A DNA stretch of 64,000 bases from Glycomyces buryatensis (lineage in GTDB: Bacteria > Actinomycetota > Actinomycetes > Mycobacteriales > Micromonosporaceae): assembly GCF_004912275.1 (NCBI RefSeq), contig NZ_STGY01000057.1, positions 1-64,000 on the forward strand, read 5' to 3'. Below the pieces are notes generated by a model. It was not told the DNA's origin, searched no databases, and saw only the letters and a program-made list of their open reading frames with translations. Made by a program: the position numbers and the translations under genes. Below are positions 50,894 to 59,711 of the stretch, piece by piece (position 1 is the first letter of the stretch; each line of letters begins with the position of its first letter).

Positions 50894-50955
50894 GGCGCGG
50901 TCCTTCCGGCGGGGACTCTCACCGCCCGCCGGTCTGCTCGATGATCGGAGACTCA

Positions 50956-51786
50956 GTGTCCTCAAAGGATGTCAAGAAGCGCCGCGTAGTGCGTGGAATC
51001 GTCGTCGCGGCCACCGCCGCGCTCGCGACCACCGGTGCGTTCATGGTGGCCTCGTTCGGCTCCTCGGCTTCGGCGGACGTCACCCTGCTCCAGTACACCG
51101 CGCTCGGCGACTCTTACGCCTCCGGCGTGGGCGCCGGCGACTACATCGGCGACGACGGCTGCTACCGCTCCGCGAACGCCTACCCCAAGCAGGCCGCGGC
51201 CGAGATCGGCGAGAAGCTGAAGTTCAATGCCTGTTCGGGCGCGGTCGTGGCGGACGTGGTGGAGAACCAGCTCATCCACCTCACCGACGAAACCGTCCAT
51301 GTCACGATCGGCGTGGGCGGCAACGACGCCGGGTTCTCCTCGGTCCTCGGCGCCTGCGCCGGCACCGACACCGCCGCCTGCACGGCCGCGGTCGAGGGCG
51401 CTCGGGCCATCATCACCGACACCCTGCCCACCCGCCTGGACGACCTGTACACCCAGGTCGAGACCGAGGCCGACAAGGCGTCGATCGTGGTCGTGGGCAA
51501 CCCGCGCCTGTTCAACGAGACCTCCTGCGACGACACGCTGGCGATCACCCCCGAGGAGCAGGCGCTGCTGAACGACGCGGCCGACCTGCTGGCCGAGACC
51601 ACCGCGGCCGTGACCGCCGACCACGGCTTCGAGTTCGCCGACGTGCGCGAGGCCTTCACCGGCCACGAGGTCTGCTCGGCCGACCCGTGGCTGCTGGGCT
51701 ACACCGGCAACTTCGAGTCCTTCCACCCGAACGCGGCCGGCCAGGACGGCTACACCGACGTCGTGGTGCCCTACCTGAACGACTAA
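50956..51786 (+). CDS. Secreted SGNH/GDSL esterase, copy 1
   Basis: 276 residues from GTG 50956 (GGAG 6 nt upstream). A signal peptide (about 1-40, ending SSASA) precedes an SGNH hydrolase with the catalytic Ser in TALGDSYASGVGAG, oxyanion Asn in GVGGNDAGF and catalytic His in ESFHPNAAGQ. Cys pairs (CYRSANAYP, NACSGA, CAGTDTAAC, CDD, CSAD) suggest three disulfides as in Streptomyces scabies-type and SCO lipase-like SGNH enzymes. The tandem paralogue follows 165 nt later with its own promoter. Substrate: an ester or lipid outside the cell, not determined. Confidence 0.9.
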   Translation: MSSKDVKKRRVVRGIVVAATAALATTGAFMVASFGSSASADVTLLQYTALGDSYASGVGAGDYIGDDGCYRSANAYPKQAAAEIGEKLKFNACSGAVVADVVENQLIHLTDETVHVTIGVGGNDAGFSSVLGACAGTDTAACTAAVEGARAIITDTLPTRLDDLYTQVETEADKASIVVVGNPRLFNETSCDDTLAITPEEQALLNDAADLLAETTAAVTADHGFEFADVREAFTGHEVCSADPWLLGYTGNFESFHPNAAGQDGYTDVVVPYLND

Positions 51787-51800
51787 GGCGCGCAATGTGA

Positions 51801-51831
51801 ACCGGCCCGGGGGATGTTCTCCCGGGCCGGT
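51801..51831 (+). terminator. Terminator of the first SGNH gene
   Basis: ACCGGCCCGGG and CCCGGGCCGGT (11 bp) around a 9-nt loop, 15 nt after the stop codon. Confidence 0.8.
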
Positions 51832-51870
51832 CGCCGTATCGGAGGCCGACAGTTCGAGGTACGACCCGGA

Positions 51871-51897
51871 TTGCCGGGTGTCTATACAATTGCCGGG
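51871..51897 (+). promoter_or_regulatory. Candidate promoter of the second SGNH gene with direct repeats
   Basis: TTGCCGGG occurs at 51871-51878 and 51890-51897, flanking a TATACA -10-like box (51883-51888). The arrangement could be a promoter with a paired binding site. Confidence 0.35.
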
Positions 51898-51951
51898 ATC
51901 ATTCGGTGCGCCCGCCCCGGCCACCGTCGCACTCTTCGATCGGAGATTTCT

Positions 51952-52797
51952 GTGTTCCAAAGGTCCGTGTTCCCAAGGGACGCAAAGCCGCGCTGGGCGT
52001 TGCGGGCCCTCGCCGCCGCGGGCGTCGTCGCGCTCGCCGGTGCCGCCGCGTTCGGGGTGGCCTCGTTCAGCCACCAGGCCACGGCGGACATCACGGCAGA
52101 GGAGTACGTCGCCCTCGGCGACTCCTATGTGGCCGGCGCCGGCGCGGGTGACTACATCGACGATGACGCCTGCCGTCGCTCCGAGAACGCCTACCCGAAG
52201 CTGGCGGCCGTCGAGCTCGGCGAGGAACTGCGGTTCGACGCCTGCTCGGGCGCTGAGACCATTGATGTGGTCGAGAACCAGCTCACCCACCTCGACGACT
52301 CGACGGCGCACGTCTCGATCGGCGTGGGCGGCAATGACATCGGGTTCTCCGCGATCATGAGCGCCTGCTCGGGAACCGACGACGACGCCTGCGCGAGCGC
52401 GATCGAGAGCGCCGAAGCCGCGACCACCGACGTGCTGCCCGCCAGCCTGGACGACCTGTACACCCAGGTCGCGGCCGAGGCGGGCAACGCCATGATCGTG
52501 GTGGTGGGCTATCCGCATCTGTTCGACGGGACCACCTGCGACGCCACCGTGGGCATCACGCCCGAGGAGCAGGCGGCGCTGAACGACTTGGCGGATCTGC
52601 TGAACGCGACCACCGCCGAGGTGGCCGAGGCGCACGGGTTCCCCTTCGCCGACCCGCGCGAGGCCTTTGCCGACCATGCGATCTGCTCCGAGGATCCGTG
52701 GCTGCTGGGCCATGTCACCGACGAGGCGTCCTTCCATCCGAACGCCGCCGGTCAGGCCGGCTACGCCGAGGTCGTGCTGGACTACCCGTACGAATAG
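51952..52797 (+). CDS. Secreted SGNH/GDSL esterase, copy 2
   Basis: 281 residues from GTG 51952, with GGAG 7 nt upstream. The sequence before both paralogues' starts is also shared (a CGGAGA-type site followed by GTG). Signal peptide about 1-44. The catalytic blocks VALGDSYVAGAGAG, GVGGNDIGF and ASFHPNAAGQ are intact, and the Cys positions match copy 1. The two are a tandem duplication with separate promoters and near-identical terminators, which suggests different induction or substrate range. Confidence 0.9.
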   Translation: MFQRSVFPRDAKPRWALRALAAAGVVALAGAAAFGVASFSHQATADITAEEYVALGDSYVAGAGAGDYIDDDACRRSENAYPKLAAVELGEELRFDACSGAETIDVVENQLTHLDDSTAHVSIGVGGNDIGFSAIMSACSGTDDDACASAIESAEAATTDVLPASLDDLYTQVAAEAGNAMIVVVGYPHLFDGTTCDATVGITPEEQAALNDLADLLNATTAEVAEAHGFPFADPREAFADHAICSEDPWLLGHVTDEASFHPNAAGQAGYAEVVLDYPYE

Positions 52798-55655: not shown

Positions 55656-56840
55656 ATGCAATTCGGAATCTTCTCGGTCAGCGACATCACGCGCGACCCC
55701 GTGTCGGGCGAGACGCCGAGCGAGGCGGAGCGGATCAAGGCGATCGTCCAGATCGCGAAGAAGACCGAAGAGGTCGGCCTGGACGTGTTCGCCATCGGCG
55801 AGCACCACAACCCGCCGTTCTTCTCCTCCTCGCCCACCACGCTGCTGGCCAATATCGCCGCCCTCACAAGTCGGCTGCTGCTGACCACCTCGACCACCCT
55901 GATCACCACCAACGACCCCGTCCGCATCGCCGAGGAGTACGCGATGCTCCAGCACCTCGCGGGCGGGCGCATGGACCTCATGCTCGGGCGCGGCAACACC
56001 GCGCCGGTCTACCCGTGGTTCGGCCAGGACATCCGCAAGGGCCTGCCGCTGGCGCTGGAGAACTACAACCTCCTGCATCGGCTGTGGCGCGAGGACGTAG
56101 TGGACTGGGAGGGCGAGTTCCGCACCGCGCTCCAGGGCTTCACCTCGACGCCGCGCCCGCTGGACGACGTCCCGCCGTTCGTGTGGCACGGCTCCATCCG
56201 GACCCCGGAGATCGCCGAGCAGGCCGCCTTCTACGGCAACGGCTTCTTCGCCAACCACATCTTCTGGCCCACCTCGCACTCGCTGCGCCTCATCGAGTTC
56301 TACCGCCAGCGCTTCGAGCACTACGGCCACGGCACTCAGAAGCAGGCCGTCGTCGGGCTCGGCGGGCAGACCTACATCGCCAAGAACTCGCAGGACGCGT
56401 TCAAGGAGTACCGGCCCTACTTCGACGAGGCCCCCGTGTACGGGCACGGTCCGTCGCTTGAGGACTTCAGCTCCCAGACGCCGCTGTCCGTCGGCAGCCC
56501 GCAGGAGGTCATCGAGAAGACCCTGACGTTCCACGACGCCTTCGGCGACTACCAGCGCCAGATGTTCCTCATCGACCATGCCGGACTGCCGCTCAAGGCC
56601 GTGCTGAACCAGCTGGACCTGCTCGGCGAGGAGGTCGTTCCGGTGCTGCGCAAGGAACTCGCCTCGCGCCGCGACCCGGAGTCGGCCGACGCGCCCACGC
56701 ACCAGGGTCTGGTGCGCGCCAAGTACGGCGACGAGCCGGCCCGCCAGCCGCGCCCGAACGCCAACCGCGGCGACAATGTCACGGGCGCCTCGCCCTACCA
56801 GGACAGCGACGCCTCGGCCGAGTACCCGAAGCTGGTCTGA
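55656..56840 (+). CDS. CE1758-type luciferase-like FMN monooxygenase
   Basis: 394 residues of the bacterial-luciferase (LLM) fold: MQFGIFSVSDITRDPVSGET at the start, GEHHNPPFFSSSPTTLLANI, LTTSTTLITTNDPVRIAEEY and LAGGRMDLMLGRGNTAPVYP. The C-terminal ~50 residues are a polar extension typical of the CE1758 branch. It uses FMNH2 and O2, and the paired CE1759-type FMN reductase lies two genes on (57338), with a MarR gene between. The three form an operon. Substrate unknown. Confidence 0.9.
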   Translation: MQFGIFSVSDITRDPVSGETPSEAERIKAIVQIAKKTEEVGLDVFAIGEHHNPPFFSSSPTTLLANIAALTSRLLLTTSTTLITTNDPVRIAEEYAMLQHLAGGRMDLMLGRGNTAPVYPWFGQDIRKGLPLALENYNLLHRLWREDVVDWEGEFRTALQGFTSTPRPLDDVPPFVWHGSIRTPEIAEQAAFYGNGFFANHIFWPTSHSLRLIEFYRQRFEHYGHGTQKQAVVGLGGQTYIAKNSQDAFKEYRPYFDEAPVYGHGPSLEDFSSQTPLSVGSPQEVIEKTLTFHDAFGDYQRQMFLIDHAGLPLKAVLNQLDLLGEEVVPVLRKELASRRDPESADAPTHQGLVRAKYGDEPARQPRPNANRGDNVTGASPYQDSDASAEYPKLV

Positions 56841-56855
56841 GGGGGAGTGACGGCC

Positions 56856-57341
56856 ATGGCCCGCAGTGAAAGCCGACTCGCGAACGACGCGTGGGAAGCG
56901 CTGCTCACCGCCCACGCGCGGCTGATGAAGGGCTTCGCCGCCGAGGACATGTGGGATGACATCTCGATGCGCGAGTACGACGTCCTCTACACGCTGTCCA
57001 AACACGACGGACCGATCCGGCCGGTCGAACTGGGCCGCGACGTCCTGCTCAGCCAGCCCGCCTTGTCTCGGATGGTCGAGCGCCTGGTCGACCGGGGCCT
57101 GGTGGCGCGGGCCGCCGATCCGGTGGACGGGCGCGGCGTCAGGCTCTCGTTGACCGAGGCCGGACGCGGGGCGCAGCGCCGCATCGGCGGGCGGCACGCC
57201 GTCGACGTCTCGCGTGCGGTCAAGCGCGCGCTCACCGAATCCGAGATGCACCAGCTAGAGGCGCTCTGCCGCAAGCTCGCCGCCGGCGAGCGACTCATTC
57301 AAGACGACCACTTCAAGTCCGAACAGGAGCCACAACGATGA
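56856..57341 (+). CDS. MarR-family regulator inside the flavin monooxygenase operon
   Basis: 161 residues from ATG 56856 (GGGGGAG 8 nt upstream); a GTG at 56847 is possible. The wHTH reads VELGRDVLLSQPALSRMVER with the wing DPVDGRGVRLSLTEAG. It sits between the monooxygenase and FMN reductase genes and overlaps the latter by 4 nt (ATGA), so it probably controls this operon in response to the monooxygenase substrate. Confidence 0.92.
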   Translation: MARSESRLANDAWEALLTAHARLMKGFAAEDMWDDISMREYDVLYTLSKHDGPIRPVELGRDVLLSQPALSRMVERLVDRGLVARAADPVDGRGVRLSLTEAGRGAQRRIGGRHAVDVSRAVKRALTESEMHQLEALCRKLAAGERLIQDDHFKSEQEPQR

Positions 57342-58042
57342 ACGACCCCGCAGGCCAGGCCGCCACCGAACGCTTTCGTCTCGTCGTCGTCTCCGGCGGC
57401 ACCAGCGATCCGTCCTCCACCCGGCTGCTCGCCGACCGGATCGCCTCTCGCACCGGCGAACTCGCCGCCGACCGCGGCGAGAGCGTCGAGGTCGGCGTGA
57501 TCGACCTGCGCTCGCTCGCCTCCGAGATCGCCACCGCGATCGTCTCGCAGCACATTGGCCCGGGTCTGACCCGCGCGGTCGAGCTGCTGGGCGCCGCCGA
57601 CGGCATCGTCGCCAGCGCGCCGGTGTACAAGGCCGCGCCGAGCGGGCTGTTCTCCTCGTTCTTCCATGTGCTGGACAACGATCTGCTCATCGCGAAGCCG
57701 GTGGTGTTGGCCGCGACGGCCGGGACGGCGCGGCACGCGCTGGTCGTGGACGAGCAGATGCGGTCCCTGTTCGCCTACATGCGCACGCTGACGGCGCCGA
57801 CGTCGGTCTTCGCCGCCAGCGAGGACTGGAACGACAAGGCGCTCGGAGGGCACGTGGAGCGGGCCGCGATCGAGCTGCTGCTGCTCATGGAGAGCGGCTT
57901 CGCCCGCCAGATCCGGGACGAGTCCTGGAAGAGCTACCAGCACGAGTACGGCAGCGCGGGCGGCACCGAGCTCGACATCGATTTGAGTTCGGACCTGATG
58001 CGGCTGGCCACCGGCGGAAAGTCGGTGCCCAGGCAGCGCTGA
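57338..58042 (+). CDS. CE1759-type NADPH-dependent FMN reductase
   Basis: 234 residues. RLVVVSGGTSDPSSTRLLAD is the flavodoxin-like FMN phosphate loop, and VASAPVYKAAPSGLFSSFFH matches the NADPH-dependent FMN reductase signature. It supplies reduced FMN to the CE1758-type monooxygenase encoded upstream. The ATG overlaps the MarR stop. A C-terminal ~50-residue extension is normal for this branch. The peptide/P450 pair begins 260 nt further on the same strand. Confidence 0.9.
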   Translation: MNDPAGQAATERFRLVVVSGGTSDPSSTRLLADRIASRTGELAADRGESVEVGVIDLRSLASEIATAIVSQHIGPGLTRAVELLGAADGIVASAPVYKAAPSGLFSSFFHVLDNDLLIAKPVVLAATAGTARHALVVDEQMRSLFAYMRTLTAPTSVFAASEDWNDKALGGHVERAAIELLLLMESGFARQIRDESWKSYQHEYGSAGGTELDIDLSSDLMRLATGGKSVPRQR

Positions 58043-58302
58043 CGCAATGCGCGAATCAGCCCGCCCGTCGCCCGCCACCGTCTGAGCCCGAGCGCGGACT
58101 GGTCCGCCCGTCGACATCGCTCCTCGGGGAGCGGATCCTCGGGATCTTCGGCAGAGCGTTTCCCGAAGCGGGATGCGTGAACGCGCTCGCAATTCCTGCC
58201 GCTTTCCCGCCGGTCCACCGCCTCGCAATCGCTGCCTTCGACTGCTGTACTTGACTTTCGAACACCGCGGCGGCTTCCGTCGCCCGAATGACTGGAGTGA
58301 AA
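58043..58302 (+). promoter_or_regulatory. Leader region of the peptide/P450 pair
   Basis: 260 nt without a convincing gene. TTGACT at 58251-58256 is a candidate -35 about 50 nt before the peptide ATG, with no clear -10. No strong terminator separates it from the flavin operon, so read-through is possible. Confidence 0.35.
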
Positions 58303-58386
58303 ATGGCACTGATCAAGGCATTCATGCTCAACGCTTTCGGTGGGAGCGTCAAGCCCGCCAGCTACCCGCTGCCTTACCCGAAGTAA
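58303..58386 (+). CDS. 27-residue candidate RiPP precursor peptide
   Basis: A 28-codon gene with a good Shine-Dalgarno (GGAG, 5 nt spacing) and ATG start. It ends in TAA only 2 nt before the ATG of a cytochrome P450, so the two are almost certainly co-translated. The product starts MALIKAFMLNAF, has a Gly-Gly at 13-14, and ends SVKPASYPLPYPK. The C-terminal half is rich in Pro and has two Tyr (21 and 25) spaced i, i+4. Tiny precursors directly before a single P450 are the layout of biarylitides, cittilins and tryptorubin-type peptides, in which the P450 crosslinks aromatic residues. The core here matches none of those that I know. Product and activity are inference. Confidence 0.7.
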   Translation: MALIKAFMLNAFGGSVKPASYPLPYPK

Positions 58387-58388
58387 CC

Positions 58389-59711
58389 ATGGATCGCAAC
58401 GGTCGCGGTGCCGACATGCGGACCTCGCCCGCAGCCCCAGACGGTTCGCGGGAGTCGACAACACTTCCCCCAGGACCGGTGCCGCGACCGTTGGGATTGC
58501 CCCCCAAAGACTTCGACCGTGACCCGATCGCATGCCTGGCGCGACTGCGAGACGAGTACGGCGACGTGTGCTCCTTCGCCGCGGGCAGGGTCCTGCTCGC
58601 CCGTCCCGAGTGGACAAACTGGGCGATGGCCCGCAGCAACAGCGCGACCGTCGCGGATCAGACCGAGGAACCGCGGCAGTTCAGCCGCCCCGACCTCATC
58701 CGTGACCACGTCGAGACCTGGATGGCCGCCCGCCGCACTGCGCAGTGGCACCGGCTCGGCCGCGACGTCGCCGAGCGGACGGCCCCGGCCATCCGCCTGC
58801 GCCTCCGGGAGTTCATGGACGCCTCGGGGGATTCCCCGGCCAGTCTGACTGATTGCCAGCTCGCCGTGCTCGACGCCGCCGGAAGCGTGTTCGTCCGGGA
58901 TCTGGAGGGCCCGCTGCGAAGTGTCCTCATCTCCGCCGCGGACCTGCTCCAGCAGGAGAGCATGGCGTCGTTCACGCTGCCGTACTGGCTCTCCTCCCGG
59001 GCGCGCCGCCGCCTGCGCGTCAACACCGTCTGGATCGAAGCCCTCGTCGCGCACGTCGGGGAGCGCCGCGCTGCGCGGGATGCCGCTGAACCGCCCTCGG
59101 ACCTGCTCGACCTGCTCCTCGACGCCCGCGACGACGACCGTCCGGCGTTCACCGATCTCGAAGTCGCGCAGGCGCTGTCGATCAATCTCGGAAACCTCTA
59201 CACGGTCGGCGGGACCGGCTTGGCGTGGCTGCTGACGGCCTACGGCGAACACGACATCGTCCGGCCCGAGGCGGTCGGCGCCGAAGACTGGGCGCGCGCC
59301 GTAGTGAAGGAGACCCTGCGGCTGTATCCGTCGGTTGCGCTCACCAGCCGAATCCTGACGGAGGACGCCAAGTTCGGGGACGTCACGGTCCCCGCGGGCG
59401 ACTCGGTCTTCCTCAGTCCGCTGCTGCTCCATACCGACCCGCGCTGGTGGCGCGAGGACCCGAGCCGGTTCGATCCGACGCGGTGGCTCGCCGAGGAGGT
59501 CCACGACCCGCACGCGTACCTGCCCTACGGCGCGGGCCCGCGGATCTGCACCGGAGTCCACATCTCGAACGCGGTGCTGGAGAGCGCCGCCGACCTGCTC
59601 GCGAACCGAGCGGTGACGGGGAATTCGGGCCTCCCCAGGCGTCGGTGGGGTTCGGTCACTCAGCCCCGAAAGCTCCGCGTCCGCATCGGCCGAGACACCA
59701 AGACCGGCTAA
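58389..59711 (+). CDS. Cytochrome P450 coupled to the small peptide gene
   Basis: 440 residues from ATG 58389. The heme loop reads LPYGAGPRICTGVHISNA with the axial Cys at about 387. The K-helix ExxR is VVKETLRLYPSVALTSR (E308, R311). The I-helix is atypical: INLGNLYTVGGTGLAWLL in place of A-G-x-E/D-T-T, so the acid-alcohol pair for O2 activation is altered, as in some P450s that crosslink peptides. No ferredoxin or reductase gene is adjacent. The start overlaps nothing but lies 2 nt after the peptide stop. Likely a tailoring enzyme for that peptide. Confidence 0.9.
   Translation: MDRNGRGADMRTSPAAPDGSRESTTLPPGPVPRPLGLPPKDFDRDPIACLARLRDEYGDVCSFAAGRVLLARPEWTNWAMARSNSATVADQTEEPRQFSRPDLIRDHVETWMAARRTAQWHRLGRDVAERTAPAIRLRLREFMDASGDSPASLTDCQLAVLDAAGSVFVRDLEGPLRSVLISAADLLQQESMASFTLPYWLSSRARRRLRVNTVWIEALVAHVGERRAARDAAEPPSDLLDLLLDARDDDRPAFTDLEVAQALSINLGNLYTVGGTGLAWLLTAYGEHDIVRPEAVGAEDWARAVVKETLRLYPSVALTSRILTEDAKFGDVTVPAGDSVFLSPLLLHTDPRWWREDPSRFDPTRWLAEEVHDPHAYLPYGAGPRICTGVHISNAVLESAADLLANRAVTGNSGLPRRRWGSVTQPRKLRVRIGRDTKTG

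Follow-up and report, generated by a model that had tools for sequence, protein, structure and literature searches.

The window, the whole 64,000-nucleotide stretch of Glycomyces buryatensis DNA that we analysed, contains a 27-codon gene that has its own Shine-Dalgarno sequence and stops 2 nt ahead of the ATG of a cytochrome P450 gene (at 58389). This arrangement had been described in the original prediction, and it can be read directly from the sequence. The locus has these features:

58194–58214, forward strand: putative control element made of a direct repeat (TCCYGCCG-N3-TCCYGCCGGT), 109 bp ahead of the precursor's start codon
58246–58251, forward strand: TGTACT block ahead of the 5′ UTR, a possible −10 promoter element, conserved in most of nine loci
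58294–58297, forward strand: precursor Shine-Dalgarno, GGAG, seen in the sequence and at 9/9 loci
58303–58386, forward strand: precursor peptide gene, 27 codons plus stop, with a counterpart in 9/9 clade loci and 7 invariant columns out of 29
58360–58383, forward strand: presumed core, SYPLPYPK, its border a guess and its Tyr pair invariant in 9/9 loci
58363–58365 and 58375–58377, forward strand: codons of Tyr21 and Tyr25, within the presumed core
58389–59711, forward strand: cytochrome P450, 440 aa, the presumed cross-linking enzyme (PF00067; clade of nine, support 100/100)
59202–59228, forward strand: altered I-helix stretch TVGGTGLAW (residues 272–280), in which T272-V273 replace, by alignment, the E-T of four ordinary P450s (L043–L046)

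Translation of 58303–58386 gives MALIKAFMLNAFGGSVKPASYPLPYPK and a stop codon; five bases separate the GGAG from the ATG. The leader of this peptide includes Gly13-Gly14, and Tyr21 and Tyr25 are the sole aromatic residues of its core; both the Gly-Gly and the tyrosine pair four residues apart are thus where they had been predicted. Searches of the peptide against Pfam and NCBIfam gave no family at E ≤ 5. In the P450, Pfam finds PF00067 alone (E 5.5e-33), and our choice of start codon is backed by an N-terminal (N/D)GR(G/S) that the alignment shows to be common to nine clade members. The heme loop and ExxR are intact, as foreseen: ExxR occupies residues 308–311 (codons 59310–59321), and the heme ligand Cys387 (codon 59547–59549) lies within LPYGAGPRICTG.

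Conservation of the precursor–P450 pair and its control region in Glycomyces

A search of 22 Glycomyces genomes at a threshold of E ≤ 1e-20 found P450 matches in 9 of them, at 10 loci in total; nine P450 loci, in 8 of the 22 genomes, form one clade (64–100% identity, support 100/100). When only close relatives were scanned for, all six loci returned were from Glycomyces. Directly upstream of the P450 in every one of the nine clade loci is an ORF of 27–29 codons with a GGAG and a shared leader; the ribosome-binding site, start and stop are kept throughout, and alignment gaps are whole codons. In eight of the nine, exactly 2 nt separate the precursor's stop codon from the P450's start codon, and at G020 the two genes overlap in the alignment as TAATG. 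Homologous loci that lack the upstream peptide, which the original prediction had named as the observation to set against it, did not turn up inside the clade.

In the precursor protein alignment, which was set by hand, the invariant columns are M1, L4, A7, G14 and G15 in the leader, plus the two core tyrosines, four residues apart; within the core, invariance is limited to this pair. The Gly-Gly belongs to a leader hinge that is conserved across the clade: its predicted position was right, and cleavage at that point finds no support. The C terminus reads SYPLPYPK in the window, DYRLPYPK in G002a and NYRLPYAQ in G003; the other clade precursors end in HYYRLHYPE, GWYAWHYWL (an identical peptide in G001 and G020), SWYSLYYME, RWYVAYYTD or RWYVAYYTE, so that further aromatics flank the Tyr pair elsewhere in the clade. 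Y-x3-Y is present in 8/8 distinct precursors and Y-x-W in one of the eight. A Tyr-Tyr macrocycle over Pro-Leu-Pro had been proposed; the tyrosine pair survives as the likely site, and the Pro-Leu-Pro does not: the two nearest sisters have R-L-P in its place and the remaining precursors yet other residues, which makes Y-x3-Y, and not YPLPY, the conserved element.

The P450 was alone among 15 window genes in finding tblastn matches (E 1e-20) at the other eight loci, each represented by a span of 16.5–19.9 kb: it matched at 8/8, and the remaining 14 genes had no match there. When the 119 proteins called at the nine loci were compared all against all, the P450 family was present at 9/9, one other family at three and one at two. 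Because they are without a match at the other eight loci, neither the genes upstream (for a luciferase-like oxidoreductase, MarR and an FMN reductase) nor the downstream ABC genes are likely to belong to the cassette. The first three form a single run at 55656–58042, immediately ahead of the cassette. Elsewhere in the window (50941–52797), two adjacent, similar and secreted-looking ORFs (50941–51786 and 51814–52797), both with GDSYxxGxGAGDYI, look by eye like tandem SGNH-type esterases.

Two further Glycomyces loci deserve mention. At L077 (G007:C20:41953–42246), in a genome with no match in our genus P450 search, the control region and ribosome-binding site run straight into a P450 tail, beside an HTH-NB-ARC-TPR gene; this remnant is 58% identical over 62 residues, with the heme-loop Cys changed, and is a relic of the cassette, probably left by an internal deletion. 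A P450-tail query of the 22 genomes (E 1e-6) found no further relic. At L009 (G005:C1:918124–919365), another Glycomyces P450 with 33% identity has a different coupled peptide, MKIINRILRRKSQRMAGRNQWPPEHFYG.

The direct repeat is exact in 9/9 clade loci, 107–111 bp ahead of the precursor ATG. It has 52 exact sites, with 11-bp phasing, in 15 of the 22 Glycomyces genomes, in which the reversed pattern has none. Many of the other sites in the subset that we examined precede lipoprotein-like or secreted proteins, as judged by eye. At three of the nine clade loci (G013, G015, G018) there is a convergent HTH-NB-ARC-TPR gene. Of the 24 closest Glycomyces homologues of this protein, all scoring more than 860 bits, 10 have an exact repeat no more than 1.6 kb away, against about 0.06 expected for evenly spread sites (reckoned for 1.5 kb), where the cut-offs were chosen after the lists had been seen and 3 of the 10 are at cassette loci (G013, G018 and the G007 relic). 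These sequence patterns suggest that a regulator of this type acts at the direct repeats, and that the repeat likely marks its genus-wide regulon; the control element would then connect the cassette with promoters across the whole genus. A hairpin in the 5′ UTR was also considered and rejected: 87% of cells pair, but no pair is changed on both sides, and z falls below −2 in only two of nine folds.

The P450 and its peptide-linked relatives

By alignment, Thr272-Val273 occupy the I-helix slot that in ordinary P450s holds an acid-alcohol pair (the E-T of AGHETT). This pair is gone from 35 of the 36 peptide-linked P450s that we examined, its place being taken by G-V, G-A or G-P in the relatives and by T-V or A-V in the Glycomyces clade, and it is kept in four unlinked P450s (L043–L046). 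The I-helix is therefore unusual in the way that had been claimed, but this is no peculiarity of the window protein, given how widely the peptide-linked enzymes share it. Phenol-coupling P450s are known to have lost the acid-alcohol pair, a loss that is expected for coupling and not for hydroxylation. The exception among the 36 is L041 (G352:C11), which retains ETT; upstream of its P450 is a 27-aa ORF ending in TTPYIYY, which we take to resemble the cittilin core.

The best curated model (NCBIfam) for the window P450 is ApyO, with E 8.3e-25; AlbFlvMonOxTrpSyn and PentlenOxigase (terpene-pathway) rank after it. Among solved structures, its sequence comes closest to 7wzl (‘Putative cytochrome P450’) and 3dbg, and no RiPP name occurs among the best 60 of 333 structure matches, nor among 60 of 61.

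At E ≤ 1e-25, the window P450 had matches in 34 of the 300 genomes sampled at family level, 12 of the 397 at order level and 4 of the 396 at phylum level; the samples are not disjoint, and the window genome is counted in them. The matches amount to 44 distinct places, of which we examined 40, leaving out four weak ones (G121 twice, G134, G112). Of the 31 P450s outside the clade, 27 are preceded by a short ORF that carries a Shine-Dalgarno-like sequence and whose C terminus is aromatic; we chose these ORFs by eye from the enumerated set. L043–L046, which are the phylum-level matches, lack one. Pairing with a peptide is therefore what is normally seen in this region of the P450 tree. Y-x-Y or Y-x-W is found in 26 of these 27 peptides, and Y-x3-Y in four. 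Many of them read R-(M/V)-(G/A/S)-G-x-Y-x-(Y/W), which is close to the stretch RMGEGYLYD of ApyA (PMC13192836). One family of 29–32 aa peptides precedes the P450 genes at L012, L014, L015, L017–L020, L022–L025, L027–L031 and L042, for example MARVLRHVAARLMGRSQVSGRYPYWFYNYPE, or with RYIYW/RYDWW/RYEWW cores; its members may or may not be known micitide-like RiPPs.

We suspect long-branch joins among the relatives in the P450 tree, and the stem of the nine-row clade is long (2.22). Homology between the clade leader and that of the relatives was not upheld, the scores being weak: the best hmmsearch E for a clade precursor was 0.14, and the hhalign probability was 42%, or 10% with another column setting.

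Translation, proposed pathway and alternatives

Codon-level evidence for translation of the precursor, to which the original prediction had also attached weight, came out neutral overall. Pairwise differences over eight distinct precursors are 0.40, 0.37 and 0.36 at codon positions 1, 2 and 3, so there is no silent excess. NG86 estimates of dN and dS are 0.164 and 0.107 for the window and G003 (dN > dS), 0.209 and 0.292 for the window and G002a, and 0.064 and 0.339 for G002b and G015. The high GC content of third positions, together with a fast-changing core, may mask selection on the precursor. By substitution score, frame 0 is the best of six (2.15 versus 0.71–1.66) and has no stop, in an alignment that was made from protein and favours this frame. 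When the five other distinct clade precursors were used as a profile, the window ORF came 10th among 1972 six-frame ORFs (E 1.5); the same profile placed G002a 7th (E 0.079), and G003 was absent from the best 15 of 1972. As a control we inspected four other P450 genes in the window genome, one of which, L072, has an SD-preceded 27-codon GTG frame, apparently by chance, 9 nt before one of 11 enumerated P450 starts. Since a short frame of this kind can arise there too, the coupling of precursor and P450 is not decisive by itself; its conservation is.

A conserved short precursor gene beside a P450, the feature by which membership of the P450-modified RiPPs (cyptide superfamily) was judged, is found at 9/9 loci. 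The pairing is conserved, the leader is shared, the Tyr pair is invariant, the I-helix pair is lost and the enzyme is kin to peptide-linked P450s; judged from sequence, the precursor and P450 very probably constitute a P450-modified RiPP system. This is what had been predicted, and the Tyr pair is upheld as the likely cross-link site: it is the core's invariant element, and the nearest model is that of ApyO, which cross-links Tyr to Tyr. We lean, though only slightly, towards the P450 joining Tyr21 to Tyr25 specifically, and the same slender preference extends to a minimal P450-modified RiPP operon that yields a Tyr-x3-Tyr cross-link and a five-residue ring.

In such a pathway, a regulator bound at the direct repeats would govern a two-gene message. 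The 27-residue precursor would be translated, followed by the P450 through translational coupling, which is suggested by the gap of only 2 nt. The N-terminal leader (M-x-(S)-L-x-K-A ... G-G) would dock on the P450, which would in turn position the C-terminal SYPLPYPK over the heme. Tyr21 and Tyr25 would be joined by phenol oxidation and radical coupling, with the loss of two hydrogens and the formation of a C–C or C–O bond; the outcome would be a five-residue Tyr-x3-Tyr ring, and a housekeeping protease would afterwards remove the leader.

Several other explanations have to be weighed. The pair might be a P450-modified RiPP of which the modification is a different one (a bond from Tyr to a backbone nitrogen or to an aliphatic side chain such as Leu23 or Pro, or a hydroxylation), with the Tyr pair serving for binding; we regard this as a genuine possibility, albeit not a probable one. 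A plain hydroxylation fits poorly with the lost acid-alcohol pair, and the fact that both tyrosines are the only invariant core residues at 9/9 loci speaks against the alternative as a whole. In its favour are the extra aromatics beside the Tyr pair in the wider clade, the aryl-to-backbone bonds described for atropopeptides (PMC11450843), and the switch in ApyO bond type that follows from a one-residue change (PMC13192836).

It is improbable, in our estimation, that the 27-codon ORF, instead of encoding the P450's substrate, regulates the P450 gene as a leader that acts by stalling or coupling. Its tight coupling, its Pro-rich C terminus and the strong conservation of the upstream DNA would suit that role; yet, the Tyr pair excepted, variation in the peptide is greatest at its C terminus, and kin P450s have ApyA-type aromatic peptides at variable distance, which a coupling element would not need. 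We consider it very improbable that the ORF is untranslated and owes its apparent conservation to the flanking promoter and P450: the missing silent excess and the chance frame before one other P450 of the genome are what this would lead one to expect, but start, ribosome-binding site, stop and whole-codon gaps are preserved at 9/9 loci, and the stop-free frame 0 scores best of six, even if the protein-made alignment favours it.

Relation to known P450-modified RiPPs

The cittilin core is YIYY; a cittilin was rejected, the window core being SYPLPYPK. Likeness to ApyO/ApyA of Burkholderia thailandensis rests on the best curated model and on the joining of two Tyr by one P450; however, ApyA is 66 aa long with YLY (i,i+2), whereas the window precursor has 27 aa and i,i+4 spacing, and the aminopyruvatide cluster adds MNIO, B12-radical SAM and methyltransferase genes, none of which is among the scanned window neighbours (PMC13192836, PMC11117315). 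An aminopyruvatide was rejected, the ApyO model giving 87.3 bits against a cut-off of 525 and the window precursor having no Y-x-Y/W motif. ApyO makes C–C bonds between the YLY tyrosines, and C–O bonds when the middle Leu is changed; the rings that the introduction of this source names for P450 RiPPs have three or four residues, plus a two-residue case (PMC13192836).

The Y-x-Y/Y-x-W pairs of our own survey (L011–L031, L038–L040, L042) resemble the clade in their 31–39% identity, short aromatic precursors and identical I-helix loss, and differ from it in core spacing, i,i+2 as against i,i+4. Pseudosporamide (PMC7277628) and micitide 982 are Tyr-Pro-Trp products, and the YPW in L013 suggests that these loci are related to them. 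Atropopeptides (tryptorubin A and kin) have in common with the window a minimal two-gene cluster, a short precursor and one P450, and their published definition calls for the class P450, a KSLK-type leader motif and Trp at core 2 (PMC11450843). The window precursor has KPAS at 17–20, which is not KSLK-type, and no Trp, so an atropopeptide was rejected; (K/R)SL occurs in sister precursors only near residue 2–4. A four-residue spacing is not unheard of as a prediction, since 14 predicted atropopeptide octapeptide cores, which have additional residues between those that are modified, place aromatics four apart (W2, Y3, W6, Y7; W2/W6) (PMC11450843). Biarylitides resemble the pair in the P450 cross-linking of aromatics in a tiny precursor; they too were rejected, the precursor there having five residues and the ring three, versus 27 residues here (PMC13417212). 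From its sequence, the cassette would work like the atropopeptides, biarylitides, cittilins and aminopyruvatides, yet it fails tested features of each. A review counts 1057 P450 RiPP clusters, sorted into 11 categories, and also reports the cyptide superfamily (PMC12299652); further related literature includes PMC12352619, PMC13383641, PMC13250620 and PMC12230676.

We tentatively suggest, a shade short of even confidence, that the Glycomyces clade constitutes a RiPP family of its own, shifted from the i,i+2 Tyr-x-Tyr/Trp of its relatives to an i,i+4 Tyr-x3-Tyr macrocycle, and that the window and its two nearest sisters are a stripped-down form with only the ring-forming tyrosines. Because the relatives use Y-x-Y/W and G001/G020 keep Y-x-W, the bond could differ within the clade. 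The open-licence literature, outside which the main P450 RiPP surveys lie (He 2023, Hu 2023, Nam 2023, Liu 2024), yielded no recognised Glycomyces P450 RiPP (the one paper found for the genus concerned a thiopeptide) and no Y-x3-Y P450 RiPP; the Glycomyces clade may already be present in the networks of published surveys. Relative to the open-licence literature covered, which leaves those surveys outside, a five-residue P450 RiPP ring is perhaps new, a claim that we make with some hesitation.

P450s that knit ribosomal peptides are sought as macrocyclisation catalysts, and the invariant Tyr-x3-Tyr pair, if cross-linked, would widen the ring size to five residues. There is just a single aromatic pair in each of the cores of the window, G002a and G003, and so these offer a clean test of the bond; the contrast between this clade and its Y-x-Y/W relatives would reveal what in the P450 sets the spacing.
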